Below the pieces are notes generated by a model that did no database searches, had not been told where the DNA came from, and was given only the letters and a program-made list of their open reading frames with translations. Below are positions 10,629 to 59,123 of a DNA stretch of 64,000 nt, one piece after another. This DNA is from Isoetes taiwanensis. Taxonomy: Eukaryota; Streptophyta; Lycopodiopsida; Isoetales; Isoetaceae. Both the position numbers and the translations under genes were made by a program. The stretch's first letter is position 1. Each line of letters begins with the position of its first letter. The DNA is taken from positions 7,184,216 to 7,248,215 of the forward strand of contig JAJEKV010000005.1 of the NCBI GenBank assembly GCA_021234155.1, given 5' to 3'.

Positions 10629-13600
10629 TTGTCACATATGATGCATCATGATTTTGATCCTACAGTCAACGTTCTTCTTAACAAAGAAGATTTGGCTTTT
10701 GAAAGTGCATGCTTGTCATTAAAAGATCACGTTCGAAAAGTGAAGCATGAGGTTGTTCCTCTAGAGAAAAAAGCTTTCATTGTTCATACCACTCCGGATG
10801 AGCAAATTTTTACAGGTTCCAGACGTACTAGAGAGCCTAGTGATTGTGAAAAGGCCTTTTACATTGGTTGTAAAAAATTAAAAAAATGAAGCATATATTC
10901 CAAGAAGGAATTTTTCCTACTAGACGTGATTCTAGTGGGGCATTTCTGGTGGCAAGAATCGTGTTTTTCCCCAGTTAATGGTTATAAAGACCGGGCATGT
11001 TCTTTTAGTGGAAAGTGCAATCATGAGGACTTCACTTCTCACTTTCGACAGTTCTTTGAAAAACACCATGCTCATAATAACATGGTTTATGAAGCTCAGG
11101 CTTTGATGGTGGATTCATCCACTTATTTCATAGTTGACTCAAGACCAACTTCCCACATGACTTATGCCAAAGAGCATTTAGTGATTTATTTTCTTATTCA
11201 ACATTCAAAAATCAGTATATCTTGATGATGATACTTGTCATAAAGTCGAGGGTATTGGAGATTTACGCATGTAGACATATATTCTAGCGGGTGTTCTCCA
11301 TGTTCCTGAATTGCGTAGAACATTTCTTTCAGTTTCTCGCCTTCATGTCTTCGATGTTGTGGTGTAATTTGAGAGAAATGTTTGTCACTTTATTGTTGAT
11401 GGTTGCGTACTAGCTACAACTCACCGCATGGAAAACTTCTATCAAATTAATCTTGCTGAATTCGTGAATATGATGACGGATAAAGGAAGTAGTTTATCGT
11501 TGTTATGCCCCCCAGGTTTGGTCATGTCGGTTTTTCTTATCTTGTGGCCATGAAACGCAACAAGGAGGTGAAATCATTTCATATGAATTCAAAGTCCATG
11601 GGCGGTTGTGATACATGTGCCCTTGAAAAATTGCATAGGCAGCCATTCTTCAAATCTGAGTTTCAACCTCTAATATTCTTGACTTGGTGCATACAGATAT
11701 GTGTGGTCCATTGCGCATCCATGTGGAGATGGACACTACTTTTTACTATTCATTGATGATTTTTCTCGATACACATGCCTATATTCTCAAAAATGTTTAA
11801 GTTGTTATCTAAGTTTACGGAGTTCAAGAGGATAGTTGAAACATAAGCAGGTAGACGATTGAAAAGATTGCGAAGTGACAATGGTGGTGAATACAAATCA
11901 CATGCTTTCACCCATATTTTATGGCGAAGAAGATGTTCATCATGAGTTCACTATTCCTTATACGTCTGAGCAAAAGAACCGTACTGTTTTGAATGTTGCT
12001 CGTTGTGTTGATCCATGCGGGTCTTGAAAGTTCTTTTTTGGCATAATCTGTGGCAACTGTTGTCTATGTTCAGAACATATTGCTTTCTATTGTCTTAGTT
12101 GATAAGACTCCTTATCAATTATGGACTGAAGATATCCAAATGTTGCACACTTGCATATTTATAGATGTTTGGCTTGGATACATATGCCTACTCGTAAAAA
12201 GCTTGATCTGATGTCTAGAAAGTGTGTTTTCTTGTGATATCTTTTGACACTAGTGGCTATCACTTTGGGATATTGAGTCGCGGAGAGTCATCTTTGAAAA
12301 AGATGTTATTTTTTGTGAGAAATGAATCGCTAGTGAAACCTAACTGGCATATTGCATAACTTTCACAACAAAGAAGATGATGCTCCTATTGTCCTAGTTT
12401 CTCAAAATGTCATCAATGTTCATAACCCTCCATTAGCCCTGCGTGCACTTCCTCATACTTCTGCATTCGCTTACAACCCTTTATTAGAACTTCATGAATT
12501 TTCTAATACTTCTGCATCGATGAGCCCTGATGATGGCAATGCTTGCATGGATGTGGCACCGACTGCACTTAAAATTGTTCATTCGTCACACCATCATTGG
12601 CAACCTACTAAAAGGATCTTGGACTATCGTGCAGGATGTTATTACCTTGATGATTTTCTTTCTTGCCATTACAGATGATCCTATCGCTTATGATCAGGCA
12701 GTTACTTCTTCACAAAGTGCAAATTGGTAGATTCCAATGGATGTCGAATGTGATTTCTTAATTAATAAAGGAACTTAGGAACTAATCGAGTTGCCACTTG
12801 GAAGGAAGACGGTCAAATGCAATTGGACGTTTAAGACTAAATATTGAGTTGATGGTACTTTTGTCAAATTCAAAGCTCGCTTGGTTGCAAAAGGTTATTC
12901 TCAAGTTGCGGAATTGATTATACTGAAACTTTCTCACTTGTAGTTCGGTTAACTACTGTAAGAGCTCTTGTAGCATTTGCAGTTGCCTATGACTTGGAAG
13001 TACATCAGATGGATGTCAAAATAGCTTTTCTTAATGGTGATCGTGAAGAAGAAATTTACATGGACCAAGCAGTTGGATATGTTGTTCAAGGGAAGGAGAC
13101 TATGGTATGTCGGTTACGAAAATCACTATATGGGCTTAAGCAGGCTTCACAAGCATGGTAGTTGAAGATGAATACTTTCCTATTATCAGCAGGATATCTC
13201 CCTAGTGCAGTAGATTCGAATCTTTAGGTCAAGAGATGTGGTGAACGATTTGTTATTATAGCTCTATATACTGATGATACAATCTTAGCTGCTAATGAAA
13301 TAAATTTTCTCAATCAGGTAAAGCGAGACCTTTCAAGGGCCTTTGAGATGGTTGATCTTGGTGCCATACATTCCTGCTTGGGAATTGAAGTGACTAGAGA
13401 TAGAAGCAAATGACTGTGCAACTACGTCAAACCAATTATATTGATGATATGGTTAAAATGTTTAGTTTACAACATGCTAAGAGTCGACTTACACTTGCCT
13501 ATAAGCTCTCAAAAGTATACTTTGTTTACTTCAGATCCTCCCCTTTCAGATGCAAAGAGTTGCCTATAAGCTCTCAAAAGTATACTTTGAATATGTTGGG

Positions 13601-14192
13601 TCAATTTATGCAGGATCTAGGCATCAAACATTGGCAAGCTACGAAGTGAGTTCTTCGTTATTTAAAAAGCACTAACAATTATGGGCTTTTCTACAGAAAA
13701 TATGACCATCATACATCTCTCACTCTTTATGGTTACACTGATGCTGATAGGGCTGGAGATAATGACACCTTGAGATCTACTAGCGGGACTTGCTTTTTCT
13801 TTGACAAATCTCTTATTTCTTTGTTTAATAAGAAACAGTATTGTGTTGTTGTGTCCTCAACTGAAGCTGAGTACGTTGCTGCATCTTTAGCAAGTAGAGA
13901 ACTTGTTTGGTTGCGAAGAATGTTGGAACGTTCTCAACAAGTACAATTGGAGCCGACACAATTATTATGTGATAACAAAGGTACTATAAATTTGTCTCAA
14001 GGTGAAGTCTTGCACTCTAAATTAAAGAACATTGAAGTTCATCATCATTATGTGAGACTGGAGGTAAAGAAGAAGACCATTATCTTGGAGTTTTGCCCGA
14101 CTGACTCTATGGTTGCGGATATATTTATGAAGTCATTACGGTCGAAGAAACATCTCCCATTCTCTCTATCTCTTGGTATTGTTGGAGAGTGA
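10629..14192 (+). mobile_element. Decayed Ty1/Copia retrotransposon (gag to RNase H)
   Basis: Remnants of a Copia polyprotein appear in the expected order but in shifting frames. They are a gag-like piece (10629-10889), a protease-site remnant reading DSRPTSHMT near 11140 where Copia normally has a DSGAT-type motif, and a pre-integrase zinc-binding piece (GCDTCALEKLH near 11610). Integrase traces follow near 11700. Reverse transcriptase spans about 12780-13400, with VHQMDVKIAFLNGD, SLYGLKQAS and YTDDT in place of YVDD. RNase H covers 13735-14192 and includes SSTEAEYVAAS and CDNKG. Many stops and frameshifts make it non-functional. The 3' LTR may start near 14180 (TGTTGGAGAG), but I find no matching 5' LTR. 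Confidence 0.88.
13770..14192 (+). pseudogene. Copia RNase H domain, best-preserved piece
   Basis: A 140-residue open stretch of Copia RNase H. It shows SSTEAEYVAAS, with the catalytic Glu, then LCDNKGTINLS and a C-terminal segment reading VADIFMKSL (Copia usually has VADIFTK). An initial catalytic Asp lies just upstream in GYTDADRAGD, read from 13733 in the same frame. It ends at the junction with the putative 3' LTR. It is part of the decayed element above, with no evidence of independent function. Confidence 0.85.
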
Positions 14193-14312: not shown

Positions 14313-14924
14313 CCCCCCAAAATCCCTCCCCTCCATCAACCATCTCCCACCACTCCTTGCTACCATCACACATTTGGTGTATGGTATGTAGTATATATGT
14401 GGTGGATGGTGTATAGCGTATAGAATATGTGGTGATGTTGTATGTTTTGTAGTGTAGAGTGTGTGGTGCATGGTACGTGCCTTATGGTGTTGTGGTGTGG
14501 CATGAGTTTAGTATGATTTGTTTGGTGGATATGATACATGGTGCATGGTGTAGTGTGTGGTAACATACGCAGCACTAAGGTGCTCGGTCTTGTTGAGAAA
14601 TGAGCTTCCTATAACCCCCCGCCCCCAATCCCTCCCCTCCATCAACCATCTCCCACCACTCCTTGCTACCATCACACATTTGGCGTATGGTATGTAGTAT
14701 ATATGTGGTGGATGGTGTATAGCGTATAGAATATGTGGTGATGTTGTATGTTTTGTAGTGTAGAGTGTGTGGTGCATGGTACGTGCCTTATGGTGTTGTG
14801 GTGTGGCATGAGTTTAGTATGATTTGTTTGGTGGATATGATACATGGTGCATGGTGTGGTGTGTGGTAACATACGCAGCACTAAAGTGCTCGGTCTTGTT
14901 GAGAAATGAGCTTCCTATAATTGG
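14313..14924. repeat. 306-bp tandem duplication of a GT-rich minisatellite
   Basis: Two near-identical copies (about 14313-14618 and 14619-14924). AATCCCTCCC at 14321 recurs at 14627, and the downstream sequence stays almost identical for the whole unit. The unit is rich in GTGGT, GTATG and CATGGTG words. Its last bases are GGTCT followed by TGTTGAGAAATGAGCTTCCT, which is the start of the neighbouring TRIM LTR. The duplication therefore includes the TRIM's target site and about 22 bases of its LTR. Confidence 0.9.
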
Positions 14925-15073
14925 GTGGACAGGCTGGGGATCGAACCCAGGACCTCTTGCTTGCAAGCCAAGTACTCTACCACTAAGCTACCGGCCCTTT
15001 AATGGATTTTCGGCACTCCTCCACTGAGTCATTCTCCATGTGTGCCCATTACACATACTCTAGCATTCCAACA
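14897..15073 (-). repeat. TRIM 3' LTR (177 bp)
   Basis: Reads TGTTGGAATG...TCTCAACA on the minus strand. It is the same length as the partner at 25470-25646 and differs from it at about ten positions that I can see. It contains the tRNA-Ala-like sequence starting 76 nt from the LTR's 5' end and finishing 29 nt before its 3' end. Confidence 0.93.
14926..14997 (-). tRNA. tRNA-Ala(UGC)-like sequence inside the TRIM 3' LTR
   Basis: A 72-nt cloverleaf fits. Acceptor GGGCCGG pairs with CCTGTCC with one mismatch and one G-U. The D arm starts TAGCTTAGTGG, matching the RNA polymerase III A box. The anticodon loop is CTTGCAA, so the anticodon is UGC (Ala); its stem has one G-G mismatch. The T arm CTGGG/CCCAG is perfect around TTCGATC, giving a near-consensus B box GGTTCGATCCC. 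Discriminator base is A. It reads in the same direction as the TRIM. I see no run of four or more T just downstream, so a defined Pol III terminator is missing. Its location inside an LTR argues against a normal host tRNA gene. Confidence 0.8.
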
Positions 15074-15082
15074 TTTCCCCTT
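15074..15082 (-). other. TRIM polypurine tract
   Basis: Reads AAGGGGAAA on the minus strand, directly before the TG of the 3' LTR. This is the normal priming site for plus-strand DNA synthesis in LTR elements. Confidence 0.75.
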
Positions 15083-15102
15083 AATGGGCACACCAATCCA
15101 TT

Positions 15103-17040
15103 TGTTGCCCCCAAAGGGCAACATGCTAATTGTGGTCTAGGCATTTAAACTAGGCCAATTTATCTTAAAAAGACTAGGTCAAAGTTTGGAAGATTCTTGG
15201 TATTCAACATTGATGTGGAGGTCGAAAGATGTTCATTCCTCAGGTCAACAAGTGCTCAAGATTCAAATTCACATGAGGTACTTTATTTGAGGTAAAAAAT
15301 GCTTAGTCAAAGAATATGCTCTAGAAGATTCTGGGTTATGAAGTTTGGAAGACATTTTTTGAAGATTGGAAGTCAAAAGTTTGGAAGACCCCATGGTGCT
15401 TGATTTTATCCCTTAGCCATCCTCATCCAATTATTATTCATATTCTATTTCTATTCCTTGAGATTTTCTAGCCATTTTTCTACACCCATACCCCTTTTTT
15501 TTGTTTACCTTTGCATACCTTATTATGCTTTGCTCAATTTTCTCTTTCTCTACTACATCCACATTTCCCCATGAATTACTCTTTCCCATTGCCCCTATAT
15601 CTTCTCACTTCTTATGCCATTTGTTTTTTGCAAATTTCCCTAGCCAAAATCCTTTTGCAATTCTTCATCATTATGCCATGCCACTTGTACACCTTGTGGA
15701 ATATTCCTGATCATTATGCCCAAGAACTTGGCATATTCCCAAAAAATTAGGGTTGCCATTGCTAAAATGATTCACCCCTTCAAATTTTTATGAGTGACTC
15801 TTTAAAACCTTAGCCTAGCTTTGCAAAAATTGAAGAATACAGCATATTCCAGGGATATACGGGCGAAAATACGAAATCGTATCGCGCTATTTTCAGGAAA
15901 AATACTGCCAAGAACCCTAAATTTCTGCCTCCACCTCGAATCATGCCGGATTTGGATCCAAACCTCTCGGAACTTACCTATTTTCACCTTCCCGCTCTTT
16001 AAGAACCGAATAAACCCATCAATTAAGGCTAAGATCAAGCAAACATTTGAAAACTAAAATATATATATGGGGATTCGACAAAAAGAATTTTCTTGAAGGC
16101 CCGTAGCGCATAAAAATCTTATCAGGATCAATGCCGAGCATGACTAGAAGGATTTGAGAAGACTCTGAGTACTCCCCGATCAAGTCCCAAGAGATTTGGT
16201 TGGAAATTATCTATTGAAATTATTTATTGACCTGAAGTTGATTTTGAAGTACTGAAGTATTATTACCCAACATTTTTATGATTGATCTACCTCCATATCA
16301 ATGAAATTTGATGCCTACTTGAAGAAATTATCTCTCATTATGATTTTTTTTACAATTTCTGTCCATTCAAGATTCTACAGAAAATTCCCATGTACTTTTG
16401 ATTGCTTTTAGCCCATTTGCCATCAATCCTTGAGACATCTGGAGTCCATATGTTTTGAAAAATCCAAAAAATTCCACTCACAACTCGAGTTAGAAATTTT
16501 TGCATTCTCGCTTTGATCGTTTTTTTTCTTATTTTGCCAAATCCAAACACAAAAATACTTTTGCCTATCCAAATGGAAATCTGACCACTTGCCTATATTC
16601 CTCATCATCATTGCAGCATATTTGCTTTGGAAATACTCAAAAATTCGTTTGGCAACTCCAAAATCCCAATCTCTGATCACTGTTTTCAGATTTGACTGCT
16701 ATTGACCAAATTTTGACTGCACTTTGAGCTCGAATAACTCACAAACTAAGTTTCTGACTCGGTCAGAGGCTTTACTATTGGTTACCTACAACTTTTTTGA
16801 CCAAGTCTACAGTGATTGACTCAAAAAATCGATCTGCATATCAACACCACAACTGTTTTGGCAAAGGTGTCAACTTCTGGAAATGGGAAAGGTATAAAAC
16901 TTCAAATTTTTGAACTTGTCTTCGAAATTATCTTGCATAGATTGATCACCTTAAGTGATCTGGAGGTTCTAACCCCAATTTGAGTGAAAACTCAAGTTGG
17001 TTCCTTGTGGTTGACCTTTAAGCCAGGTTTAGGGTCAACA
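15103..17040 (+). repeat. Gypsy 5' LTR (1,938 bp)
   Basis: Begins TGTTGCCCCCAAAGGGCAAC, itself a small inverted repeat (TTGCCC..GGGCAA), and ends AGGGTCAACA immediately before the primer-binding site. Open frames inside it are repeated in the 3' LTR and look non-coding. Confidence 0.93.
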
Positions 17041-17043
17041 TTT

Positions 17044-17061
17044 TGGAGGTTCTACCGAGAT
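17044..17061 (+). other. Gypsy primer-binding site, tRNA-Gln type
   Basis: TGGAGGTTCTACCGAGAT lies three bases after the 5' LTR. Its complement would be a tRNA 3' end finishing in ACCTCCA. From memory this best fits a plant tRNA-Gln acceptor and T stem; the tRNA identity is an inference. Confidence 0.65.
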
Positions 17062-17083
17062 CTCTACCTGGATTTTCGAACTC

Positions 17084-20000
17084 ATGGCTCCAAAACAAAA
17101 GTTTCCAGCAGAACAAGAACCAATGGAAGATCGGGAAACTTCAGAGCCTTTCAGAGATAGATCACTTCCCCCTAACTTTGCAAGTGGATTACTTCAAAAC
17201 CTGCCTTATCAGTTTGAGTTGAATATGCCTACTCCATTGCCTACTTTTGATTCCAGCATGAGTGCTAATACTTTTCTAAGAGTCTTTGAAGATTATTACA
17301 GGGATTTTGGCTTCAAGAAAGGATGCAAGCTATCACAAATCGAAAAGTGTTTTAAAGAGGAAAGTGAAGCTGGTGCTTGTCTGACTTATGAAAAGCTTAT
17401 GGGAACCACTTCTTGGGATGACCTTGTCACCAAGTTTTTGGACAGGTTTGGAAAACGTGCTGCTCCTAAGGACCTTGTTAATGAGTTGCAAAATTTCTCC
17501 ATTTATGCAGGTGAAAGTGTGAGCCAGTACAAGGAAAGATTCAGTACCTTCATGAATAGATGCCAGAAAGTTCAAGTCACTATTCCCACACTCTTTTTGG
17601 TGTCCTCCTTTATTAAGGGCTTATCTTCTAGACCAGAAATTCACAGAAAGCTTATCAAGATTCAAGCTGCAGAAGGTTTTGATTCCATCTACAAAGTTTT
17701 TGCCAAGACTACTGAATTGACCAAAATGTTTTCTATCCTACCAGAAAAACACCATAGCTTTCATCATGATCCTTTTTACCCTGATGCCACTGATGGCCCT
17801 TATGAATCTCACCATTCTGTTCCTATCTATGCTGTGCATAAAGAAAAGAAAAAAGAAGAAGCTGATTCTCAGATTTTGGAAGTTAAAGCAGACTTGACAA
17901 AGGTAACTGAAGCTTTAGCAGAAGTGACCAAACAACTTGTGGAGCTCAAGGCAAGCAGGGCAGGTAGAACTTACCCTGAATGTATTCATTGCAATAGAAC
18001 TTCACATCCAGCTGACATTTGTTATTGGCAAATATGTCCTAAATGTAAAAAGAAAGGTCACTTTGGTAGAGAATGTCCAGTCTGTGCTTTTTGTAATGAA
18101 ATTGGCCATACTGACCTTAGATGCACTGTTAAAGAATATTTTGCCAAACAAGAGAGGGAGAAGAAGTCCGAGGCAACTCCCCATGTAAGGTTTACAGAGC
18201 CTACTAGCTCTATAAGGTTTGTGCAAGCTACAGAGGTGCCAAAGACTGAAGAGGTGATGGTGGTACAAACCAGAAGTATGGGAGATTCCTACAGACCTGC
18301 TGAGCCTACCAAGTTTGTTCCAGAGCATTCTAGGAGGTCAGCACTGCCACTACCACCTGTTATGGAAACCCCCCCTCAAGAAATAGCTCCACCTCCTCAA
18401 CAAAAATATGGTAAGAAAGATCATGACTTTGATGAGTTGGATGTTTTACTAAAAAATTCCAAAGTAAGTGTGGACCTATTTACATTGTTAAAGATTGCAC
18501 CTGGTTATAGGAAAAAGTTATTGCAACAAACTACTTTTAGTGAGGCAGTGGCTTGTGTAGGTGTTGCAAATGCCACTAATCTTATTTTGGCCCAAAATGA
18601 AGAGGATCCAGGTGCATTTATGTGTTCAGCTACTCTAGGAGGTTATTCTTTTTCCAATGTGCTGTTGGATGGAGGCTCACCTCTAAATATCATGCCTTAT
18701 CATGTTATGAAGAAATGTGGGCTCGAGATAGATAAAAGGTCATCTGTTTTGTTAAAATCTTTCTCTAATGCTAAAATAGCACCAGTTGGAATTGTGACCA
18801 AGGTTCCTGTTAACACTGAAGGTATTGTTGTAGCTGCCAATTTTGTTGTTGTTGCTTTTGAAGATTTAGGAGAAGATGCAGACATATATGATCTCTTGCT
18901 GGGAAGGAGGTGGATGGCTACAGTTGATGCTAGGCCAATCTGGTCTGAAGGGAGATGCACCATTTCAAATGGCACTCAAGTGGCCACAATTTACAACCAG
19001 GATGGTTCTTATGGCTTTAATGAAGAGGTACATTTTATCAAAGAAATGCTTATAGAAGAACCCCTAGGATCTTATAGTCTAGCAACCCCTAGCACAAAAA
19101 AAATTGATTTGATTCCTTTAATTAGAGAGTGTGCACTACCTTCTGAAGATGGCAGAAGGGGTTGTTTATGGTTTGATGGAGGAATATCAAAGAAATTGAA
19201 TGTAGCTTCATCTGCAGCCCTATTAAAAGATACTGCCAATAAACTTTTGGCTAAGGTAGGAAGGATTTTTCCCCAAATAACTTCTAATGTAGCAGAATAC
19301 AAGGCTTTGATTGCAGGTCTCCAGGAAGCTAAAGCTATGGATATTTCAATTATACATATCTATGGGGATTCTCAGTTAGTCTGCAGACAGGTTAATGGTG
19401 AATATCAAGCTAAGAATGCTGATATGGAGTTTCAGAGAAACCAGGTAATGGGAATGCTTGCTCATTTTACTTCTTGGGAAATTACTCATATCCCAAGGGA
19501 GCAGAATTGGGAGGCTGATGCTTTGTGCAGAGACACATTGATGACTTATTTATCTGAAGGAGCTATACCAGAGGAAGATCTTGATGAGGATGAGGCTAAG
19601 GAGCTTTGTCCCATACTAGTTATAAATGCATCCCAGGAAAAAGCAACCAATGAAGTTATAATCAACAAGCATGGTCAGCAAAGAACTCTGTTTGTGGGAG
19701 ATCTTTTTGACACACAAAACAAGGAAGAGATCAATAAATTCTTTGAAGAAAGAAGTGGTGTGTTTGCTTGGGATTATTCTGAGCTTATTGGTATCAAAGA
19801 GGACGTATGTCAATTTGAAATTAAAATTAAGGAAGGATGTAAGCCTGTTTTACAGAAGTTAAGAAGAATAAATGCTTCACTTTTAGATCTAATCAAAGAT
19901 GAATTGCATAAGATGTTGGATGCAGGTGTCATTGTAGAAATCATTAACCCTGAATGGGTATCATGCATTGTTCCAGTGGAAAAAAAGAATGGAGCTTTGA

Positions 20001-20959
20001 GAATTTGTATAGATTACCGAGATTTGAACAAAGCCACCATAAAAGATTGTTATCCTTTGCCCTTTTTGGAAGAAATTCTATATGCTGTTGCACGGAAGGA
20101 CATGTACTCATTTTTGGATGGTTTTTCAGGGTTCAACCAGATTAGCATCAAAGAGGAAGACCAACCAAAGACTTCATTTATCACTCCCTGGGGTATCTAT
20201 GCTATGAAAAGAATGCCATTTGGCCTAATGAATGCCCCAGCTACTTTCCAAAGAGCAATGGATGTCATCTTCAAAACCATGGCTGCTGAAGAATTTAGAG
20301 TGTATCTAGATGACCTTTGTTTGGGTTCTCATTCTAATAACCATGTGGAATTACTTGCAAAAATCTGCTCTTTATGCAGGACTTCAGGAGTCAATCTAAA
20401 TCCCAAAAAATGCATCTTTTTTGCATCCAAAGGACAGCTCTTGGGACATGAAGTATCCAGCCAAGGTATTCAAGTTGCTCAAGATAAAATTGAAGCTCTC
20501 AAAAAATTAGTACCTCCCAAGAATTTGAAGCAGGTTAAGAGTTTTATTGGTATGACAAGTTTCCTTAGGATGTATATTCCAAATTTTGCTCATATCTTAA
20601 GTCCCATTTCTAGATTGACCAGGATAGGAAAATTTTCTAAATCTGAAAGCAAGCACATACCTATCACATGGACTTCAGAATGCCAAGAGGCTTTTGACTT
20701 TCTTATTTTATCCATATGTGAAGCTACTCTTTTAAAAAAACCAGATCTGAGCCTGCCATTTGAAGTTTATATCACTGTTACTAAAAAGGCTATAGGTTTA
20801 GCCATTTTGCAGGATAAGCACACCATAGTTTTTGCAAGCAAACAATGGTCTGCCCTTGAAGAAAGATATACCAGAATAGAAAAAAGTGCTGCTGCTCTCA
20901 TGTTCCTTATCAATAGGCAAGGGCACCTACTTCTGAAAGCCAAGTTCAAGTTCATATGA
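17084..20959 (+). CDS. Gypsy Gag-protease-RNaseH-RT polyprotein (1,291 aa)
   Basis: One long frame covering most of the Gypsy polyprotein. Order: gag capsid region (about residues 55-235); three consecutive CX2CX4HX4C zinc knuckles at about 300, 318 and 334; an aspartic protease site LDGGSPLNIM with Asp529; an RNase H of the D-E-D-D type with Asp698, Glu738, Asp762 and Asp812; reverse transcriptase with YLDD at 1074-1077; then a Gypsy-type RNase H region from about 1227. In that last region the usual first catalytic Asp is absent (FEVYITVTKKAIG) and the frame ends early at TGA 20957. Tat-lineage Gypsy elements are known for an additional RNase H; here it lies before the RT. The frame is probably no longer able to complete a cycle on its own. 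Confidence 0.93.
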   Translation: MAPKQKFPAEQEPMEDRETSEPFRDRSLPPNFASGLLQNLPYQFELNMPTPLPTFDSSMSANTFLRVFEDYYRDFGFKKGCKLSQIEKCFKEESEAGACLTYEKLMGTTSWDDLVTKFLDRFGKRAAPKDLVNELQNFSIYAGESVSQYKERFSTFMNRCQKVQVTIPTLFLVSSFIKGLSSRPEIHRKLIKIQAAEGFDSIYKVFAKTTELTKMFSILPEKHHSFHHDPFYPDATDGPYESHHSVPIYAVHKEKKKEEADSQILEVKADLTKVTEALAEVTKQLVELKASRAGRTYPECIHCNRTSHPADICYWQICPKCKKKGHFGRECPVCAFCNEIGHTDLRCTVKEYFAKQEREKKSEATPHVRFTEPTSSIRFVQATEVPKTEEVMVVQTRSMGDSYRPAEPTKFVPEHSRRSALPLPPVMETPPQEIAPPPQQKYGKKDHDFDELDVLLKNSKVSVDLFTLLKIAPGYRKKLLQQTTFSEAVACVGVANATNLILAQNEEDPGAFMCSATLGGYSFSNVLLDGGSPLNIMPYHVMKKCGLEIDKRSSVLLKSFSNAKIAPVGIVTKVPVNTEGIVVAANFVVVAFEDLGEDADIYDLLLGRRWMATVDARPIWSEGRCTISNGTQVATIYNQDGSYGFNEEVHFIKEMLIEEPLGSYSLATPSTKKIDLIPLIRECALPSEDGRRGCLWFDGGISKKLNVASSAALLKDTANKLLAKVGRIFPQITSNVAEYKALIAGLQEAKAMDISIIHIYGDSQLVCRQVNGEYQAKNADMEFQRNQVMGMLAHFTSWEITHIPREQNWEADALCRDTLMTYLSEGAIPEEDLDEDEAKELCPILVINASQEKATNEVIINKHGQQRTLFVGDLFDTQNKEEINKFFEERSGVFAWDYSELIGIKEDVCQFEIKIKEGCKPVLQKLRRINASLLDLIKDELHKMLDAGVIVEIINPEWVSCIVPVEKKNGALRICIDYRDLNKATIKDCYPLPFLEEILYAVARKDMYSFLDGFSGFNQISIKEEDQPKTSFITPWGIYAMKRMPFGLMNAPATFQRAMDVIFKTMAAEEFRVYLDDLCLGSHSNNHVELLAKICSLCRTSGVNLNPKKCIFFASKGQLLGHEVSSQGIQVAQDKIEALKKLVPPKNLKQVKSFIGMTSFLRMYIPNFAHILSPISRLTRIGKFSKSESKHIPITWTSECQEAFDFLILSICEATLLKKPDLSLPFEVYITVTKKAIGLAILQDKHTIVFASKQWSALEERYTRIEKSAAALMFLINRQGHLLLKAKFKFI

Positions 20960-21125
20960 AGCAAAATCCAATGGGATTGCTATTTGGTAAAGCAACTAAT
21001 AAACCAAAAATTCAGAGGTGGGCTTGTAAGTTGCAAAGTTATGATATCTCTGTGAAAGAGTTACACTTGACACGAAATCCTAGCCTTTACTTGCCTTATA
21101 TATATTTTTTGATCATGAAGATGAA

Positions 21126-22477
21126 TTGAATACTACTGACACCTCACTTGCAGTAGCACACTTAGAGGAAGCTCAAGAAGGTCAAGTCAAAGGAGGATGG
21201 CAGCAACCCATTAGAGATTTTTTACAACATGGGATCATCTCCCCAAATCTCACTTCAAATCAAAGAAGGAGACTCAAGGACAGGTGCAGACAATTTAAGC
21301 TGATAGATAATGTTCTGTGCAAAATTAATAGAGATGGGATTTTGCTGAGGTGTGTAAGTGAAGATGAATCTGCCTTAATTATTAGGGAGATGCATAAAGG
21401 TATTTGTGGGGGACATTTTGCTGGGGATACCACTGCCAAAAAGATCCTTAGGTCTGGGTATTATTGGCCTAGTGTTTTTAAAGATTGCTATGAGATCATA
21501 AAGACTTGCCATAAGTGTCAGATTTTTAGCAAAAGGATTTTATTACCAGCTGCCCTGAATCCTATCATATCCCCAGGACCTTTTCAAATTTGGGGGTTAG
21601 ATTATATTGGTCCTATTAATCCTTCTTCTACAGGTCAACATCAGCATATTATTGTGGCCACAGACTATTTTACTAAATGGGCAGAGGCCATACCTTTGAG
21701 GCAAGCCAATGCCCTCACCACTGCAAGATTCTTACATGAATTCGTTTGCTCTAGATTTGGTATTCCTTTCCAGATACATTCTGATAGAGGTACCCCCTTT
21801 GTTAATGAAGTCATTACTAATTTGTTGAGTATTTTGAAGGTCAAACATACCAAGAGCTCCTCATATTATCCTCAGGGTAATGGACAAGCTGAAGCTACTA
21901 ACAAAGTGTTGAAAAACATTTTGCAGAAGACAGTTGAGGTCAACAAAAGGGACTGGCATATCAAAATAGTGGATGCACTTTGGGCTTATAGAGTCACTAT
22001 CAAAACAGCTACAAATCATACACCTTTCAATTTGGTTTATGGCATAGAAGCGTTCTACAAGTAGAACTTGAGCTACCTTCCTTAAGATTAGCTCATAAAT
22101 TGTGCTTACCTTTTGAACATGCCTTACAGGAAAGATTGGATGCCCTGTTACATCTAGATGAGTATAGGATGGAAGCTGAGAACACTAACTTGCTGAAAAA
22201 GGCCAAGGACCTGGCTGCATTCAAGATTGCACACAAAATGCAAGGCACCCTTAAGAAAGGAGAGCTGGTCCTCAAGTGGAACAAGTCAAAGGAGGATTCA
22301 GCTGGCAAATTTGATAATATTTGGGAAGGACCCTTTGTAGTGATGGATCCTGCAGGTACAAATTCTTATTGGTTACAAGAAATTGCTTCAGGGATGCCAC
22401 TGCCAAATCCTATCAACATCCTGCACCTGAAAAGGTATTGGGACCAGCATGCTTGCTTGTCCCTCTTTTTACATTAA
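21126..22477 (+). pseudogene. Gypsy integrase, frameshifted
   Basis: Integrase remnant downstream of the main polyprotein. The zinc-binding region has paired His and CHKC near 21510. The catalytic core has the D-D-E residues in GLDYIGP, HSDRGTPF and NGQAEATNK, and ends at a stop near 22062. The remaining C-terminal part (22100-22477), including a GPF-type chromatin/DNA-binding module (WEGPFVVMD), continues in another frame, so about one base has been lost near 22050. The 20960-21125 link to the main frame also contains stops. Not translatable as one protein. Confidence 0.9.
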
Positions 22478-23332
22478 AAGCTTAGAAGTTTATAGCAGAC
22501 TTAAAGTAGTTAGATCAGTTTGACTTTTGAGCACCTTTATTCCAGCAGGTTAGATCAGTTTGATTTTGAGCACATTACTCTAATAGTATTGGTTTCATGT
22601 TTTCTTAGGATGACCTGACCAGACAAAGCATACATGATTTCAAGAACAGGACTGATACTACTAATTACCAAGTGTCATATGCAGGAGCACCCTTCTTCCA
22701 TTTTTTCATCTGTTTTAAATATTCCTACCATCCATTCAGCCTCCTATTCCTTTTTCATACCCCTACCAGCACTCTGCAAAGTCACCTTCACCATCCTAGC
22801 AGAGTTGCAAGTAATTGAGACTAATTGGTTTGTGTGTTTCCATGACAGGTGCACTCTTGTTCCATCTTTCTCATCTGTCACATTTAGTCCTACCTACCAT
22901 TTAAAACCTCTCATTCTTGTTTTCATTCCCAAGCACTCTGCAATTCATCTTTACCACCATAACAGAGCTGCAACTCTTGAAGATCAAGAAAGGAGCATAC
23001 ATTTTCTTGTTTTGGCGAGGCCTCAAGCACTTGCATACTCACTTCATCTCCAGTTCATCACCACCTCACCATATCCACACTCACTTTCTTTTCACTCACC
23101 TCATTCCATTCACAATCATTCCATCACCCTTTTGTCATACTCACACTCACTTCTACCTTTTTCTATCCATATTATTCTATCACCACATTCATGCTCACTT
23201 CACCCACACCTGCACTTCACACTCTCATATCTCCACTTGGATACCTTGGCACAAAGTTGAAGACCCCTCTAGTTACTCATTTTTTGACATCACATGGCTG
23301 AGGGGACCAGCCTTTTTCTTGTTTTGGCGAGA
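22478..23332 (+). other. Gypsy 3' untranslated region, pyrimidine-rich
   Basis: Between integrase and 3' LTR. A TAGATCAGTTTGA..TTTGAGCAC unit occurs twice near 22510 and 22550. A CA/TC-rich tract at 23030-23240 gives a long but compositionally biased open frame. TTTTCTTGTTTTGGCGAG occurs near 23000 and again just before the 3' LTR. I see no convincing polypurine tract next to the LTR. Confidence 0.6.
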
Positions 23333-25300
23333 TGTTGCCCCCAAAGGGCAACATGCTAATTGTGGTCTAGGCATTTAAACTAGGTCAATTTATCTTAAAA
23401 AGACTAGGTCAAAGTTTGGAAGATTCTTGGTATTCAACATTGATGTGGAGGTCGAAAGATGTTCATTCCTCAGGTCAACAAGTGCTCAAGATTCAAATTC
23501 ACATGAGGTACTTTATTTGAGGTCAAAAATGCTTAGTCAAAGAATATGCTCTAGAAGATTCTGGGTTATGAAGTTTGGAAGACATTTTTTGAAGATTGGA
23601 AGTCAAAAATTTGGAAGACCCCATGGTGCTTGATTTTATCCCTTAGCCATCCTCATCCAATTATTATTCATATTCTATTTCTATTCCTTGAGATTTTCTA
23701 GCCATTTTTCTACACCCATACCCCTTTTTTTTGTTTACCTTTGCATACCTTATTATGCTTTGCTCAATTTTCTCTTTCTCTACTACATCCACATTTCCCC
23801 ATGAATTACTCTTCCCCATTGCCCCTATATCTTCTCACTTCTTATGCCATTTGTTTTTTGCAAATTTCCCTAGCCAAAATCCTTTTGCAATTCTTCATCA
23901 TTATGCCATGCCACTTGTACACCTTGTGGAATATTCCTGATCATTATGCCCAAGAACTTGGCATATTCCCAAAAAATTAGGGTTGCCATTGCTAAAATGA
24001 TTCACCCCTTCAAATTTTTATGAGTGACTCTTTAAAACCTTAGCCTAGCTTTGCAAAAATTGAAGAATACAGCATATTCCAGGGATATACGGGCAAAAAT
24101 ACGAAATTGTATCGCGCTATTTTCAGGAAAAATATCGCCAAGAACCCTAAATTTCTGCCTCCACCTCGAATCATGCCGGATTTGGATCCAAACCTCTCGG
24201 AACTTACCTATTTTCACCTTCCCGCTCTTTAAGAACCGAATAAACCCATTAATTAAGGCTAAGATCAAGCAAACATTTGAAAACTAAAATATATACAGGG
24301 GATTCGACAAAAGAATTTTCTTGAAGGCCCAGAAGCGTACAAATCTTACTGTGATCAATGCTGAGCATGACTAGAAGGATTTGAGAAGACTCTGAGTACT
24401 CCCCGATCAAGTCCCAAGAGATTTGGTTGGAAATTATCTATTGAAATTATTTATTGACCTGAAGTTGATTTTGAAGTACTGAAGTATTATTACCCAACAT
24501 TTTTATGATTGATCTACCTCCATATCAATGAAATTTGATGCCTACTTGAAGAAATTATCTCTGTTATGATTTTTTACAATTTCTGTCCATTCAAGATTCT
24601 ACAGAAAATTCCCATGTACTTTTGATTGCTTTTAGCCCATTTGCCATCAATCCTTGAGACATCTGGAGTCCATATGTTTTGAAAAATCCAAAAAATTCCA
24701 CTCACAACTCGAGTTAGAAATTTTTGCATTCTGTTTTGACTGTTTTTTACTGTATTTTGCCAAATCCAGCCACAAAAAATACTTTTGCCTATCCAAATGG
24801 AAATCTGACCACTTGCCTATATTCCTCATCATCATTACATCATATTTGCTTTGGAAATACTCAAAAATTCGTCTGGCAACTCCAAAATCCCAATCTCTGA
24901 TCACTGTTTTCAGATTTGACTGCTATTGACCAAATTTTGACTGCACTTTGAGCTCGAATAACTCACAAACTAAGTTTCTGACTCGGTCAGAGCTTTACTA
25001 TTGGTTACCTACAATTTTTTTGACCAAGTCTACAGTGATTGACTCAAAAAATCGATCTGCATATCAACACCACAACTGTTTTGGCAAAGGTGTCAACTTC
25101 TGGAAATGGGAAAGGTATAAAACTTCAAATTTTTGAACTTGTCTTCGAAATTATCTTGCATAGATTGATCACCTTAAGTGATCTGGGGTTATCTTGCATA
25201 GATTGATCCCTTAAGTGATCTGAAGGTTCTAACCCCAATTTGAGTGAAAACTCAAGTTGGTTCCTTGTGGTTGACCTTTAAGCCAGGTTTAGGGTCAACA
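23333..25300 (+). repeat. Gypsy 3' LTR (1,968 bp)
   Basis: Near-identical partner of the 5' LTR. It is about 30 bp longer, mainly because the segment containing TTATCTTGCATAGATTGATC is present twice (from about 25150 and 25189), where the 5' LTR has it once. Confidence 0.93.
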
Positions 25301-25456
25301 CCATTTCAGCCTTCACCACAATCCACATGCTCCCCTCCTCGGGCAACTCCATCACTATGGGAGTTGGGCTTTCCACTGGCCAAGCTTTGCTCATTCTCAC
25401 CCCTACACCACTGGGGACTATCCCAGTGCGGTTAAGCACCCTCTACTTGGGACCAT

Positions 25457-25469
25457 GGCTCTGATACCA
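25457..25469 (-). other. TRIM primer-binding site
   Basis: TGGTATCAGAGCC on the minus strand, directly after the CA end of the 5' LTR. This matches the initiator-tRNA-Met primer site used by many plant Copia and TRIM elements. Confidence 0.9.
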
Positions 25470-25646
25470 TGTTGAGAAATGAGCTTCCTATGATTGGGTG
25501 GACAGACCGGGGATCGAACCCAGGACCTCTTGCTTGCAAGCCAAGTACTCTACCACTGAGCTACCGGCCCTTTGATGGGCTTTCGGCACTCCTCCACTGA
25601 GTCATTCTCCATGTGTGCCCATTACACATACTCCAGCATTCCAACA
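25470..25646 (-). repeat. TRIM 5' LTR (177 bp)
   Basis: Partner of the LTR at 14897-15073. It is followed on the plus-strand side by GGTCT (25647-25651), the same five bases that flank the other end of the TRIM. Confidence 0.93.
25499..25570 (-). tRNA. tRNA-Ala(UGC)-like sequence inside the TRIM 5' LTR
   Basis: Second copy of the 72-nt tRNA-like sequence. It keeps the A box (TAGCTCAGTGG, here an exact match to the usual tRNA form), the CTTGCAA anticodon loop (UGC) and the B box GGTTCGATCCC. The last T-stem pair and one acceptor pair are now G-U type (CCCGG, TCTGTCC). Being in the 5' LTR, its promoter could drive a Pol III transcript into the element. No T-rich terminator follows directly. 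Confidence 0.8.
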
Positions 25647-25739
25647 GGTCTGGTGAATATGATATGTGTGGTGCATGGTGTGGTGCATGGTGTGGTGTGA
25701 TGTACACATCCTAACCTTGATCCTAACAGTTTAGTGTTC

Positions 25740-35239: not shown

Positions 35240-36005
35240 CAGCCCCAATTCTTGCTAACTCATTCATGATAGGCAACAAACTCGCCAAAACTATCATTTC
35301 CTGCAGTCGGAAATGAAAATGCCAAGAACCACTACGGACAGGTATAGAAGTGGGTAGAGGCTACAGAGAAGCAAGGCAACACATATCCTAGGTGCCTGAA
35401 CAATGGAATGAGCTAAGTGAACCCCAAGACCATTCGCCATAGAAACCAAGAACTCGGGAACCAACATATCTGGAGGCAAATCCATGATTTGAAACCAACA
35501 TGGGATTTTTATAACCGTCAAAGAGCTCGTGGACACAGCTGGAGTATAGAACTGATACAGGACATATGCCTCACCTAAGGCATCAACCCCTCGACTAACC
35601 AACTGTCGCACCGAGGACTCAGCCTCGAACATAATGAGGAAAAAATTATTAGGCAAGAATTTCAAAGACTGGTACCTGGGCAAACCAATCCGCCTCAAAT
35701 GTCCAGAGAGCCATGAGCTAAACCTTCGCGTGTCCAAAACTATCCCAGTGAAGTGCCCTGATACTGCAAAGGAGACCAAATTCTCTATAGTCTGAACATG
35801 CCGAGCATGGTCTATGTCTATCCAAGGATCTGCTGGAAGCACTGCTCGTAAGTCAACTGAATAATTATCATCCACAAACTTCATAGCCTCTTCCACCCGA
35901 GCACTCCTATGGTCAGGCACCTTACGCTTAATCCAGTCTGAAAAGCCTGGACGAGTGAGACGGGATACTGTGTCATTTCCGACTGTAGCTACTGAATGGT
36001 CATGA
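35240..36005 (-). pseudogene. LINE ORF1 N-terminal part (DUF4283-like), inverted segment
   Basis: Read on the minus strand from about 36000. A stretch ending in SRLTRPGFSDWIKRKVP leads into a 209-residue frame (35920-35294). That frame has features of DUF4283 proteins encoded by plant LINE-type ORF1: NNFFLIMFEAESSVRQLVSRG, an LPPDMLVPEFLVSMANGLG stretch matching the family's LP..L.....L..I.NALG pattern, and RICVALLL. It lies head-to-head with LINE sequence on the plus strand. This suggests one insertion whose 5' part is inverted. Confidence 0.6.
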
Positions 36006-36009
36006 GATT

Positions 36010-36779
36010 CAGCGCATGTTAGGGTTGATAGTGATGACCCTCATGGAGGTGGTAGTGCTCGAACCCCCAGCTACAGGTATTCTTGCGAGTGATCATAGGG
36101 GTAGTAGTGATCGAACCCCAGCTAGAGGTGTTCGTGCGAGTGGTCATGGGGGTGGTAGTGATCGAACCCCGATTGGAGGCCGAATCACAGATGGTCTTGT
36201 TGTTGAAGGAGGCGATTGTGACCAAGGCCTAGGTGCTGGAGGTGTTAGTGTTCCAGATTTCACAGGTGGAGTTCCATATGGCAGAGTCGGGGATGATATT
36301 GTCCAAACCCCAGGCGGATGTAACTGTGATCGTCCCACTAATGTCAATGCTAGGGGTGGTAGTGTTCGAACCCTAGGTAGAGGCAATAATGGGGGTGGCC
36401 ATAGTGGAGGCCCGCTCGGAGGGGGTAGTGGTGGCGGGGATGACCGACCTCTTGAGGGTACTAGCACTGATGTCCGAGGCCGGGATAGTGATGATGCTAG
36501 TAGGTTTGGAGGTGTTGGTTCTGAGAATGGTAGGGATGGTCGTAGTGTTGGTGGTGGTAGTGTTCGAGCCCCGACCGGGGGGGCCAGTCTCAACTGAAGA
36601 GGGGCCTCCATTCGACTATGCAGCATATGCAAGAAGCCAGGCAAGTTGTTCACCAGATCTCTCGGTTGGAGAGTTGGGCTGATGAGGTAGACCGCATCTC
36701 GGAGGTCAATCCATTGGCTCTAGAAGGCCCGCAGGTTTCGCCCCCTCGCGAGAGGAAGAACAAGACTGTTGTGGGATGA
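36010..36779 (+). pseudogene. LINE ORF1 C-terminal part, glycine-rich
   Basis: Gly/Asp/Arg-rich region made partly of three tandem units of about 51 bases carrying GGTGGTAGTG.TCGAACCCC (from 36047, 36098 and 36149). Further on it reads WADEVDRISEVNPLALEGP and PPRERKNKTVV. The frame stops at TGA 36777-36779, overlapping the ATG (36776-36778) that opens ORF2. Such an ATGA overlap is a plausible stop-restart arrangement for a two-ORF LINE. Confidence 0.55.
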
Positions 36780-39817: not shown

Positions 39818-40838
39818 ATGGCAACAACATTGTCTAATGTTGTGATCAGTGTATATCCTACTGGCCAAAGGATGTCTCAATTTTTGATGGCACTGGCTTT
39901 CCTATTTGGAAAATTAAGAAGACTTTACTTCTTGACGGTGATGATTTGCTTAACTTGTGCAAGGTTCTTACCTTCGTCCAGAGCCACCGATGGATGCTGC
40001 CAGTGCCCAAATCACAACCGACGCAGTATATGATAAGTGGATCGCAGATACTCAGGTCTAGGATAAAAAGAACACTGCTGCAAAACGATATATTTTATCA
40101 TCTTTAAAAGATTCATTAATTATGAATGTTGTCTCATATTCTAGTAGTCATGATATGTGGGCATATCTTGAAAAATTATATCAGAAAAAGACCATGAATG
40201 AGCGCATCCATATAAGCCATCAACTAGATGCACTTAACTTTACAAGGCTATATTGATCAGTTTAAATCTTTTAGAACAGTTGGCAGCAGCTGGTGAACCT
40301 GTTCCATCAAATAAATTACCTACTATGTTGTTGCAGTCCATGCCAATTGAATTTGAAACAATTGTGGTTGTCCTATCTGAAAAAGACAATCCTGATTTTG
40401 ATGGTATATGCATATCTTTGCTTAAGCATTCCCAACGGATTAAAGACCGCGAAGAACCATCAGATACAGCCAATGTTGCTACTGATAGACGTCTTTGCAA
40501 TATTGGCCGAGGTAGAAGTCGTGGTCATATATTTCATCACCCACGTGTTCCATTTCCTCCATTCTCTCATTGTGGTAAATCATCCTGCAATAGATTGTTT
40601 TCATAAATCTGAACATGATGCTAGATCTGGTCGTGATAAATGCCATTATTGTCATAAAACTGGTCATATTGAGGAAAAACGTCACAAAAAAGCTTATGAT
40701 GAAAAGCATGCTATAGCCATTACTCTCCCTGAATGCTAGTTGTGCTATGACAGATTGTGCCCGAGTGTTTCATGTCTCTGATTTTGCTAATCTTCTTATT
40801 GATTCGGGTGCTACTGCTCATATGGTTAGTTCTAACTA
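39818..40838 (+). pseudogene. Copia gag and protease start
   Basis: A Copia gag in several frames. It opens MATTLSNVVISVYP at 39818, then SLKDSLIMNVVSYSSSHDMWAYLEKLY near 40105-40180, typical of Copia gag. A C-terminal zinc knuckle near 40642 reads CHYCHKTGHIEEK but has lost its last Cys. The protease site LIDSGATAHMVSS is at 40795-40833. Coding similarity on this strand stops there and continues on the other strand. Confidence 0.8.
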
Positions 40839-41610
40839 AACTGGCATAAGGAATATCTTTCATGGCATCATGCTCTTGATCTATTTGGGGACAATGCAAC
40901 TTAGACAAATGCAAATTTTTTGGACTAACAACCATAGGCGATGCTACAACTTTGCACTGGGACAAATCAAACTTGTCCATTGCCTCTAGTATAGCATTTA
41001 TGTGGCTCAAATGCATCCATCCTTTTGAAGGATCACATTGAATGTTGAAGCCAAGACAAGAACGGATATTTCCAAGATTAGTCATCTCAAATGTTGATAC
41101 TAACTGCTTCTTGACAGAGATTAGAAGATCCATATCATTACAAACGAGAATATTATCATCAACATAGAGTGCAATGAAAATGAATGACTTGCCATGACGC
41201 CTATTATAAAGATTAATAGGATCTGCATGAGATGATCGAAAACCAATGGAACAAAGAAAAGCATCCATTTTCTCATACCATTTCCTTGAAGCTTGTTTTA
41301 GCCCATAAACTTACAAACCATTTGCTCCTTTCCTGGAAGTGCAAACCTTTGGGCTGGTCCATGTAAATCTCTTCTGTGATATCTCCGTTAAGAAAAGCAG
41401 TCTTTACATCCATCTGATGAACTTCCAAGTCAAATTGCACTGCAAATGCTAACAATGCACGAACAGTACAACTGGAGAAAAGGTTTCTTCATAATCAACA
41501 CTTTCAATTTGTGAGTACCCTTTGGCTACCAATCGAGCTTTAAACTTATCAAAAGTTCCATCAGCCAACATTTTTGTCATATCAAAAGTTTCATCAACAA
41601 TCATTTTTCA
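40839..41610 (-). pseudogene. Copia reverse transcriptase, opposite orientation
   Basis: Read downward from about 41610: [56 protein letters not shown], then FIALYVDDNILVCND with the catalytic YVDD, a FEMTNLGNIRSCLGF stretch, and a final PYASLV. It joins the plus-strand gag/protease piece head-on at about 40838. Frame breaks near 41270 and 41470 show decay. Confidence 0.85.
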
Positions 41611-46119: not shown

Positions 46120-46237
46120 AGCCACAGCCGTAATAATTTGCAAGTGTTCAAAATTATAAAAAACAAGAAATTTTTCGCGGAGGCCGCCGCGAACATTTTT
46201 GCCGTCATTTCCAAGTACTATAAACCATGATGACAAG

Positions 46238-46404
46238 GTAAATGTCGGACGCTGACATGTTATAGCCAGCCTTAAATGGCAAAAAATCCGCTAAGTCCAC
46301 AAAAACGCCGTGTAATTTTTTTTTTGCGTGGCTATAACATGTCAAAGACACGGATATACCACGGATATGCCCATGGGTATAACATGTCAGCGTCCGATAT
46401 TTAC
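46238..46404. mobile_element. 167-bp MITE in the UGT promoter
   Basis: Terminal inverted repeats of 27 bp with one mismatch: GTAAATGTCGGACGCTGACA... at 46238-46264 and its complement at 46378-46404. A third partial copy, GGCTATAACATGTCA, lies inside at 46330. It sits 119-285 bp upstream of the UGT start codon. Flanks share CCATGA..ACAA-like words, but I see no exact target-site duplication. Confidence 0.85.
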
Positions 46405-57957: not shown

Positions 57958-58183
57958 GTTAGAAATATAACATGCAAGGAATAAGTGACGCAGCAAGACA
58001 GAAAGAATGAGAGAGAAAGAACACAAGTTATATCCCAAAGTGAATGTATTATTCATGAAGAGTACATACTCTTATATACAAATAAGCAAAGACCCTTTTA
58101 GCTCTATGAGCTATCAATAGACAATGAACTATCAATAGACAAAAGCTAAGATTGTATGGATGTATTATAAATAAATTCCAACA
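57958..58183 (-). repeat. 226-bp LTR with adjacent primer-binding site
   Basis: On the minus strand it runs from TGTTGGAATTTATTTATAAT to ...ATTTCTAACA, followed directly by TGGTATCATAGCC, one base different from the common Copia primer site. It is a 5' LTR of a Copia or TRIM-type element whose interior lies at lower coordinates. I see no second LTR. The kinase frame runs 34 bases into it and stops there. Confidence 0.75.
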
Positions 58184-58966: not shown

Positions 58967-59123
58967 AATTTGTAATATGTTACGTCCTAAATCTGACCCT
59001 AAAAGCCCAGATTGAGATCTGTCACGTTGAATCAGTTCAGCTCTACGAATCAGTGCAGTTCTGTCACGTCGACTTGCAAATTCAAGACTGGACTTCCAAA
59101 AAACTAGATCTGTTTTGCAGTCA

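Follow-up and report, generated by a model that had tools for sequence, protein, structure and literature searches.

A Helenus-type miniature retrotransposon of Isoetes taiwanensis with a tRNA-Ala(UGC)-like block in its long terminal repeats, and hybrid insertions of its family with Copia elements

Introduction

The closest described counterparts of the element reported here, a terminal-repeat retrotransposon in miniature (TRIM) in a 64,000-nucleotide stretch of the Isoetes taiwanensis genome (contig JAJEKV010000005.1; the window), are the Helenus elements, described by Kojima in 2024 (PMC10886601) from fungi, animals, and one plant, Selaginella moellendorffii. Helenus has the same design, with tRNA-derived sequence in both long terminal repeats (LTRs), a box A containing TRGCY and YGG, and a box B containing GGTTC; its tRNA is usually nonfunctional, as seen from isotype disagreement in tRNAscan-SE. 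For Helenus-1_SMo of S. moellendorffii, the published lengths are 120 bp for the LTR and 85 bp for the internal region. Partners of Helenus elements were proposed mainly from the likeness of primer sites; in rust fungi there is also one direct case, based on internal sequence in common. The sections of that paper drawn on here give the expectation that a TRIMp3 element, a TRIM transcribed by RNA polymerase III (Pol III), has its primer region, but not its LTR, in common with its partner, and they state that none is indicated for Cassandra, the TRIM with 5S rRNA-derived sequence in its LTRs, for which TGGTATCAGAGC is given as the primer-binding site (PMC7215508).

The window element is a new plant member of the Helenus design, and hybrid insertions between its family and Copia elements are new information. 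We consider it probable, judging from sequence comparisons, that the element is a 547-bp nonautonomous TRIM of the Helenus type, that the tRNA-Ala(UGC) gene in its LTRs, although partly decayed, most likely serves as a type-2 Pol III promoter, and that the element is copied by enzymes of Copia elements. A prediction made earlier from the DNA alone (the original prediction) had proposed a tRNA-type counterpart of Cassandra. As a description of the anatomy this was correct, while the accompanying remark that its author knew of no published case is overtaken by Helenus (PMC10886601). Our search of the open-access literature, with subscription papers and preprints mostly outside it, found no second paper on Helenus, and the main text of a plant TRIM survey (PMC4717578) contains no word beginning with tRNA.

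Results and Discussion

Anatomy of the window TRIM

The following features of the TRIM were located in the window.

25647..25651, right copy of the target site duplication GGTCT, flanking the TRIM
25470..25646, minus strand, 5' LTR of the TRIM, 177 bp
25553..25563, minus strand, A box TAGCTCAGTGG in the 5' LTR (LTR positions 84-94)
25510..25520, minus strand, B box GGTTCGATCCC in the 5' LTR
25499..25570, minus strand, tRNA-Ala(UGC)-like block in the 5' LTR (ARAGORN; Rfam 56.2 bits; 19/21 cloverleaf pairs)
25458..25469, minus strand, primer-binding site TGGTATCAGAGC of the initiator-Met type, adjoining the 5' LTR
25306..25469, minus strand, 5' part of the internal region, 164 bp including the primer site; recurs in other copies
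15074..15102, minus strand, 3' part of the internal region, 29 bp including the purine tract; recurs in other copies
15074..15082, minus strand, polypurine tract AAGGGGAAA, adjoining the 3' LTR
14897..15073, minus strand, 3' LTR of the TRIM, 177 bp
14980..14990, minus strand, A box TAGCTTAGTGG in the 3' LTR (LTR positions 84-94)
14937..14947, minus strand, B box GGTTCGATCCC in the 3' LTR
14926..14997, minus strand, tRNA-Ala(UGC)-like block in the 3' LTR (ARAGORN; Rfam 61.0 bits; 19/21 cloverleaf pairs)
14892..14896, left copy of the target site duplication GGTCT, flanking the TRIM

The two LTRs have TG...CA ends and differ at 8 positions, all by transitions. Since the primer site lies just inside the right LTR and the purine tract just inside the left one, the TRIM is oriented on the minus strand, with the tRNA-like block in its sense direction. 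The original prediction had taken 14892..25651 as one miniature element. Its ends are right, but most of this 10.7-kb span is a separate, nested Ty3/gypsy element (described below), without which the TRIM is 547 bp long (354 bp in the LTRs and 193 bp internal). The longest open frame in the two pieces of the TRIM tested has 54 codons. The element combines two LTRs, a short noncoding interior, a length below 1,000 bp, a primer site, a purine tract, and a target site duplication, all features by which a TRIM is recognized, and other copies with 5-bp duplications exist in the genome. This confirms the prediction of a true TRIM with TG/CA ends, an initiator-Met-type primer site, a purine tract, GGTCT duplications, and 177-bp LTRs that each hold a sense-oriented tRNA-Ala(UGC)-like block containing A and B boxes, the block being recognized by ARAGORN and Rfam.

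The tRNA-like block comprises 72 nt (LTR positions 77-148) and is read by ARAGORN as tRNA-Ala with the anticodon TGC on the minus strand in both LTRs. An Infernal-type check had been proposed for 14926-14997 and 25499-25570, and both intervals match Rfam family RF00005 far above its gathering score of 29 (61.0 bits, E 9.3e-11 for the 3' LTR block; 56.2 bits, E 2e-9 for the 5' LTR block). They are the sole Rfam matches of the window at gathering scores. The A box reads TAGCTYAGTGG in the window LTRs, and the B box 12-mer, with up to one mismatch allowed, has two matches in the window against 0.09 expected. In both blocks the same two cloverleaf pairs fail, one in the acceptor stem and one in the anticodon stem, and the G3:U70 pair is retained. 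G3:U70 is the identity pair of alanine tRNAs.

Comparison with Helenus and Cassandra

Like Helenus, the window TRIM is shorter than 1,000 bp and has tRNA-derived sequence in both LTRs, a primer site, and a purine tract (PMC10886601). Both window LTRs contain TAGCT...TGG and GGTTC, in agreement with the published Helenus boxes, and the 5-bp duplications of the family are like those of plant and fungal Helenus. When compared by published features alone, the window element has a longer LTR and internal region than Helenus-1_SMo (177 and 193 bp versus 120 and 85 bp). It further differs from Helenus in the full-length initiator-Met-type primer site of its family and in the existence of Copia hybrids that share the TRIM LTR, a situation not reported in the sections of PMC10886601 drawn on here.

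With Cassandra the element shares the primer site and the presence of a Pol III-type promoter sequence inside the LTR, and tandem arrays as described for Cassandra (PMC7215508) occur in the family (L012, L013, L015, L034, and L055). The Cassandra LTR sequence is 5S rRNA derived, whereas that of the window TRIM is tRNA-like; no 5S match up to an E value of 1 was found in 14880-15090 and 25300-25700. A 5S-like box A in the internal region (25430-25441) was discarded, since the Cassandra box A motif occurs in the window at chance rate (8 versus 8.3 expected).

The TRIM family in the source genome

The source genome (1,658,258,908 bases in 1,110 contigs) was searched with the whole LTR, and 40 of 497 first-look candidates were scored. 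This gave at least 41 matches, 40 of them full length or nearly so at 93-100% identity, and 33 loci were fetched by LTR similarity. With the outermost LTRs taken as ends, exact 5-bp duplications flank 18 of the 33 loci. Of these, 12 are two-LTR copies, five are solo LTRs, and one has an additional piece of LTR. The 12 two-LTR copies, which are the paired copies with target site duplications that the original prediction had suggested looking for, measure 531-697 bp, and in four of them the LTRs are identical. The remaining 15 loci, without exact duplications, are arrays, hybrid ends, or truncated or rearranged copies.

L012, L013, L015, L034, tandem LTR-internal-LTR arrays
L014, L019, L021, L031, L042, hybrid ends
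L016, L020, L028, L030, L033, L044, truncated or rearranged copies

The surroundings of L019 and L021 match over 6.6 kb at 92%, and these loci may be two assemblies of one place.

A pattern of B box plus primer site had 111 matches in the genome and none for the reversed control. Among the 100 matches listed, at least 67 belong to the TRIM family and 33 to other classes, as counted by eye. In prokaryote and viral collections a pattern search matched L001-L003, none of which (0/3) contains a tRNA, and the context of L003 looks unrelated; a 26-mer of the LTR had no match in viral contigs.

The tRNA part recurs in the family. ARAGORN detected tRNA-Ala(TGC) in all 33 loci fetched by LTR similarity. 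A whole-LTR search favors tRNA-bearing copies, and a second search used the 76 bp of the LTR outside the tRNA block, with 40 of 379 candidates scored. It yielded 10 new loci (L061-L070), which are the best-scoring candidates and not a random sample; L071 is a further LTR of the L055 array. By alignment, the tRNA block is present in 10 of these 10 loci at 82-97% identity. ARAGORN reported a tRNA in eight of them (six Ala, two Val), Rfam added L067, and L070 was recognized by alignment alone. In L065 and L069, the block reads as tRNA-Val(TAC) rather than tRNA-Ala(TGC). According to the original prediction, copies lacking the tRNA part would have pointed to a chance insertion, and neither search brought up such a copy. 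These results support the view that the tRNA part belongs to the LTR and is not a one-off insertion. They also suggest that counts of tRNA-Ala(UGC) genes in the source genome are inflated by LTR copies.

Hybrid insertions with Copia elements

At L014, L019, L021, and L042, the TRIM LTR and primer site are followed by the start of a Copia gag. Longer stretches around such ends revealed three independent TRIM-Copia hybrid insertions.

C963:10554-15763, hybrid 1, 5,210 bp, GAATT on both sides
C1081:234381-244851, hybrid 2, duplication GCGCA/GTGCA (4/5 match)
C907, hybrid 3, 325 bp, CGTTC on both sides

Hybrid 1 begins with a TRIM LTR and primer site, continues with broken Copia frames (gag, beta-barrel, SH3-like, and RVT_2 domains by Pfam; RNase H by likeness only), a purine tract, and a tRNA-less Copia LTR of approximately 269 bp, and then resumes with the TRIM primer site, internal region, and LTR. 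Its outer LTRs show no substitution and one gap; L049 represents this place in a diverged version. Hybrid 2 has the same order of parts with a different Copia family and that family's tRNA-less LTR, which is cut short at its end compared to its relatives, and its outer LTRs differ at 3 of 177 positions. In hybrid 3, a TRIM LTR and the primer site lead into a short fragment of the gag of a third Copia, which is followed by the tail of a TRIM LTR. Across the three hybrids, the TRIM LTRs are 95-98% identical, versus 72-76% for the aligned Copia stretches. From the primer site on, the hybrid 2 Copia matches L077, L090, L092, and L093 at 91-96% over 626-633 bp. All four of these loci, which came from the B box plus primer-site search and are not a random sample, have a different, tRNA-less LTR, and the TRIM LTR has no match there. 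The simplest reading of these comparisons is that TRIM LTRs were swapped in at the boundary of LTR and primer site.

The hybrids suggest that Copia elements are the partner of the TRIM. By joining the TRIM LTR to Copia interiors, they fit the expectation of a shared primer region and a separate LTR (PMC10886601), and from the shared primer site, the duplication length, and the three hybrids we infer that Copia elements mobilize the TRIM. According to PMC6317226, Met primers occur in most chromoviruses and in those Copia lineages that employ complete tRNA primers, and the remaining gypsy lineages do without them. A Copia partner is consistent with this pattern; the nested gypsy element of the window was rejected as the partner because, by the same source, its lineage is not one that employs Met primers.

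A course of events that would produce these structures can be outlined. RNA synthesis would start in the 5' LTR by Pol III, and the TRIM RNA would be packaged in Ty1/copia particles. Reverse transcription would be primed by the initiator-Met tRNA, and Copia enzymes would copy and insert the element, leaving 5-bp duplications. If a Copia RNA were packaged in the same particle, the first strand of the TRIM could, on reaching its primer site, switch to the primer site of the Copia RNA. The Copia LTR would then be made by the usual jump, the Copia body would be copied, and a TRIM LTR would close the product. Such a switch would give the order TRIM LTR, Copia body, Copia LTR, TRIM body, TRIM LTR, which is the order seen in hybrids 1 and 2. 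We tentatively propose, as a possibility with less than even chances, that the tRNA-promoter TRIM and several Copia families share particles by way of the initiator-Met primer site and that switching there repeatedly hands the tRNA-bearing LTR to Copia coding regions. If so, autonomous elements could draw on such TRIMs as a lasting supply of new promoters, and the partners of Cassandra and other TRIMp3 families could in general be identified through hybrid insertions.

The hybrids resemble the template-switch complexes of Triticeae Copia elements (PMC1950507), which likewise have two internal regions, an inner LTR, alike outer LTRs, and flanking duplications. Here, however, the parts are a TRIM and a larger Copia element, which meet at the boundary of LTR and primer site; in the model for the Triticeae complexes, the switch takes place between R regions. 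Sabot and Schulman (2007; PMC1950507) took a single reverse-transcription event to be indicated by flanking duplications and by outer LTRs that resemble each other, and by this standard the duplications (exact in hybrids 1 and 3, 4/5 in hybrid 2) and the substitution-free outer LTRs of hybrid 1 argue against an origin at the DNA level. In such an origin, a one-LTR Copia circle or a neighboring Copia element would have recombined with a TRIM already present in the genome, with the primer site common to both as the point of exchange. This would yield the same arrangement, with an outer duplication dating from the older TRIM, and tandem TRIM arrays, which recombination can also produce, do exist in the genome; on the other hand, the sequence shared at the joint is short, namely, the 12-bp primer site, plus a few bases before it in hybrid 1. 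We regard DNA recombination as a real but doubtful alternative to the primer-site switch, and under it the hybrids would carry less information on the partner. The hybrids make the partner question testable, and with its identical-LTR copies and three hybrids this plant family of the Helenus design holds a physical record of meeting Copia elements.

Promoter or passenger

Another explanation concerns the block itself: a tRNA gene or a short interspersed nuclear element (SINE) could have fallen into an ordinary TRIM LTR and be carried along inertly, with transcription by Pol II. Variation in the block bears on this. In 49 complete LTR copies, 42 of them distinct (L014, L016, and L042 were dropped as repeats of L046-L048), the tRNA block has a mean minor-letter frequency of 0.0099, versus 0.0220 upstream and 0.0359 downstream. 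Columns with a minor letter at 10% or more number 0 of 72 in the block versus 7 of 105 outside it (Fisher p 0.042). The A box is intact in 47 and the B box (GGTTC) in 43 of the 49 copies, and the anticodon loop and G3:U70 are kept in all of them. Because these copies are related ones picked by score, the lower variation lends only moderate support to constraint on the block; its promoter part looks intact. The tRNA, in contrast, is probably not functional: the two fixed mispairs speak against function, although the anticodon loop and G3:U70, kept in 49/49 copies, do not.

Several findings weigh against a Pol III promoter. Energy folding of the block gives no cloverleaf, and 167 and 169 of 200 shuffles fold at least as well. 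The B box is altered in 6 of the 49 copies, and the low variation of the block comes from related, score-picked copies with a p value of only 0.042. Finally, a run of four or more T residues is the usual Pol III stop, and the TRIM sense strand contains none, so that a Pol III RNA would have to end downstream; TTTT is likewise found in 0 of the 49 LTR copies. This absence was not accepted as evidence on Pol III, since TTTT is also missing from 91% of dinucleotide shuffles and from 5% of window stretches of 547 nt. An inert passenger would account for the fixed mispairs, the RNA that does not fold as a cloverleaf, and the lack of a terminator-like T run. It would not account for the retention of both boxes in most copies of a block that is less variable than its surroundings. 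Moreover, neither window LTR contains TATAAA, TATATA, or AATAAA, and the block is not flanked by a significant duplication; as a trace of SINE insertion, the best flanking direct repeat was rejected because 21% (5' LTR) and 45% (3' LTR) of shuffles reach it. We therefore think an inert passenger unlikely and favor the block as the probable promoter of the TRIM, which might keep it transcribed under Pol II silencing, as suggested by the original prediction.

It is very improbable that the tRNA-bearing LTR is native to an autonomous Copia family of which the TRIM is a deletion derivative: the succession of TRIM LTR, primer site, and Copia gag start at three independent places would fit, but LTRs more alike than the Copia stretches behind them run counter to the way LTRs normally evolve, two hybrids have a second Copia LTR, without a tRNA, ahead of the TRIM internal region, and the hybrid 2 Copia has another LTR in 4/4 relatives fetched, a nonrandom sample.

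Nested gypsy element and flank duplication

Two further features interrupt or adjoin the TRIM.

15103..25300, plus strand, nested Ty3/gypsy element, not part of the TRIM
15098-15102 and 25301-25305, duplication CCATT of the nested element
14321..14920, 306-bp tandem duplication of the left flank (units with 3 differences in 294)

The nested element is approximately 10.2 kb long, with LTRs of 1,938 and 1,968 bp, and Pfam identified gag, an RNase H-like domain, reverse transcriptase, RNase H, and integrase; a protease was assigned by eye. The LTR divergence of the TRIM (Kimura two-parameter distance 0.047) exceeds that of the nested element (0.018; 34/1,930 sites; Fisher p 0.021), as the nesting order requires. 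The TRIM is an older copy that was later split by the gypsy element. The 306-bp duplication arose after the TRIM insertion, since its first unit carries GGTCT together with a stub formed by the first 24 bp of the TRIM LTR.

In the nested element, an RVT_3 RNase H-like domain (residues 714-833) lies ahead of the reverse transcriptase (residues 982-1141). An additional RNase H between protease and reverse transcriptase characterizes the clades TatI of club-mosses and TatII of gymnosperms (PMC6317226), and the order of domains in this Tat-type element matches these clades, from which alone a nonflowering vascular plant would be the likely host. Between its LTRs, the differences form two clusters, and an additional unit of 37 bp is present in one LTR.

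Copia-type LTR ends with a T-arm-like hairpin

The other-class matches of the B box plus primer-site pattern were considered as further Helenus elements and rejected. No A box was found within 90 nt upstream in 14 of the 14 loci read, and Rfam detected no tRNA in the 12 scanned (all except L092 and L093); we take these matches to be Copia-type LTR ends. At L077, L090, L092, L093, L072, L074, L091, and L082-L087, Copia-type LTRs end in a T-arm-like hairpin with the B box TTGGGTTCGAATCCCAA or a similar sequence; no A box was found upstream of these hairpins. After the hairpin comes sequence complementary to the primer site (GCTCTGAT...ATCAGAGC), so that the LTR end mimics the 3' half of a tRNA. 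A 63-nt example has a better fold than 189 of 200 shuffles (z -2.1); a second, from L085, does not stand out in this way (z -0.6).

Other features of the window

Copia remains and additional coding regions also occur in the window.

12662-14192, plus strand, and 41158-41547, minus strand, remains of two Copia elements whose reverse transcriptase and RNase H are similar to the Copia frames of the hybrids
40723-41310, RVT_2 (Pfam)
35297-36040, minus strand, DUF4283 frame
44450-46290, minus strand, likely host gene for a UDP-glycosyltransferase (Pfam in the 44450-45409 part)
52369-52920, minus strand, RVT_1 frame of the long interspersed nuclear element type
58149-58979, minus strand, likely host gene for a protein kinase
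61722-62453, plus strand, DDE_1 transposase

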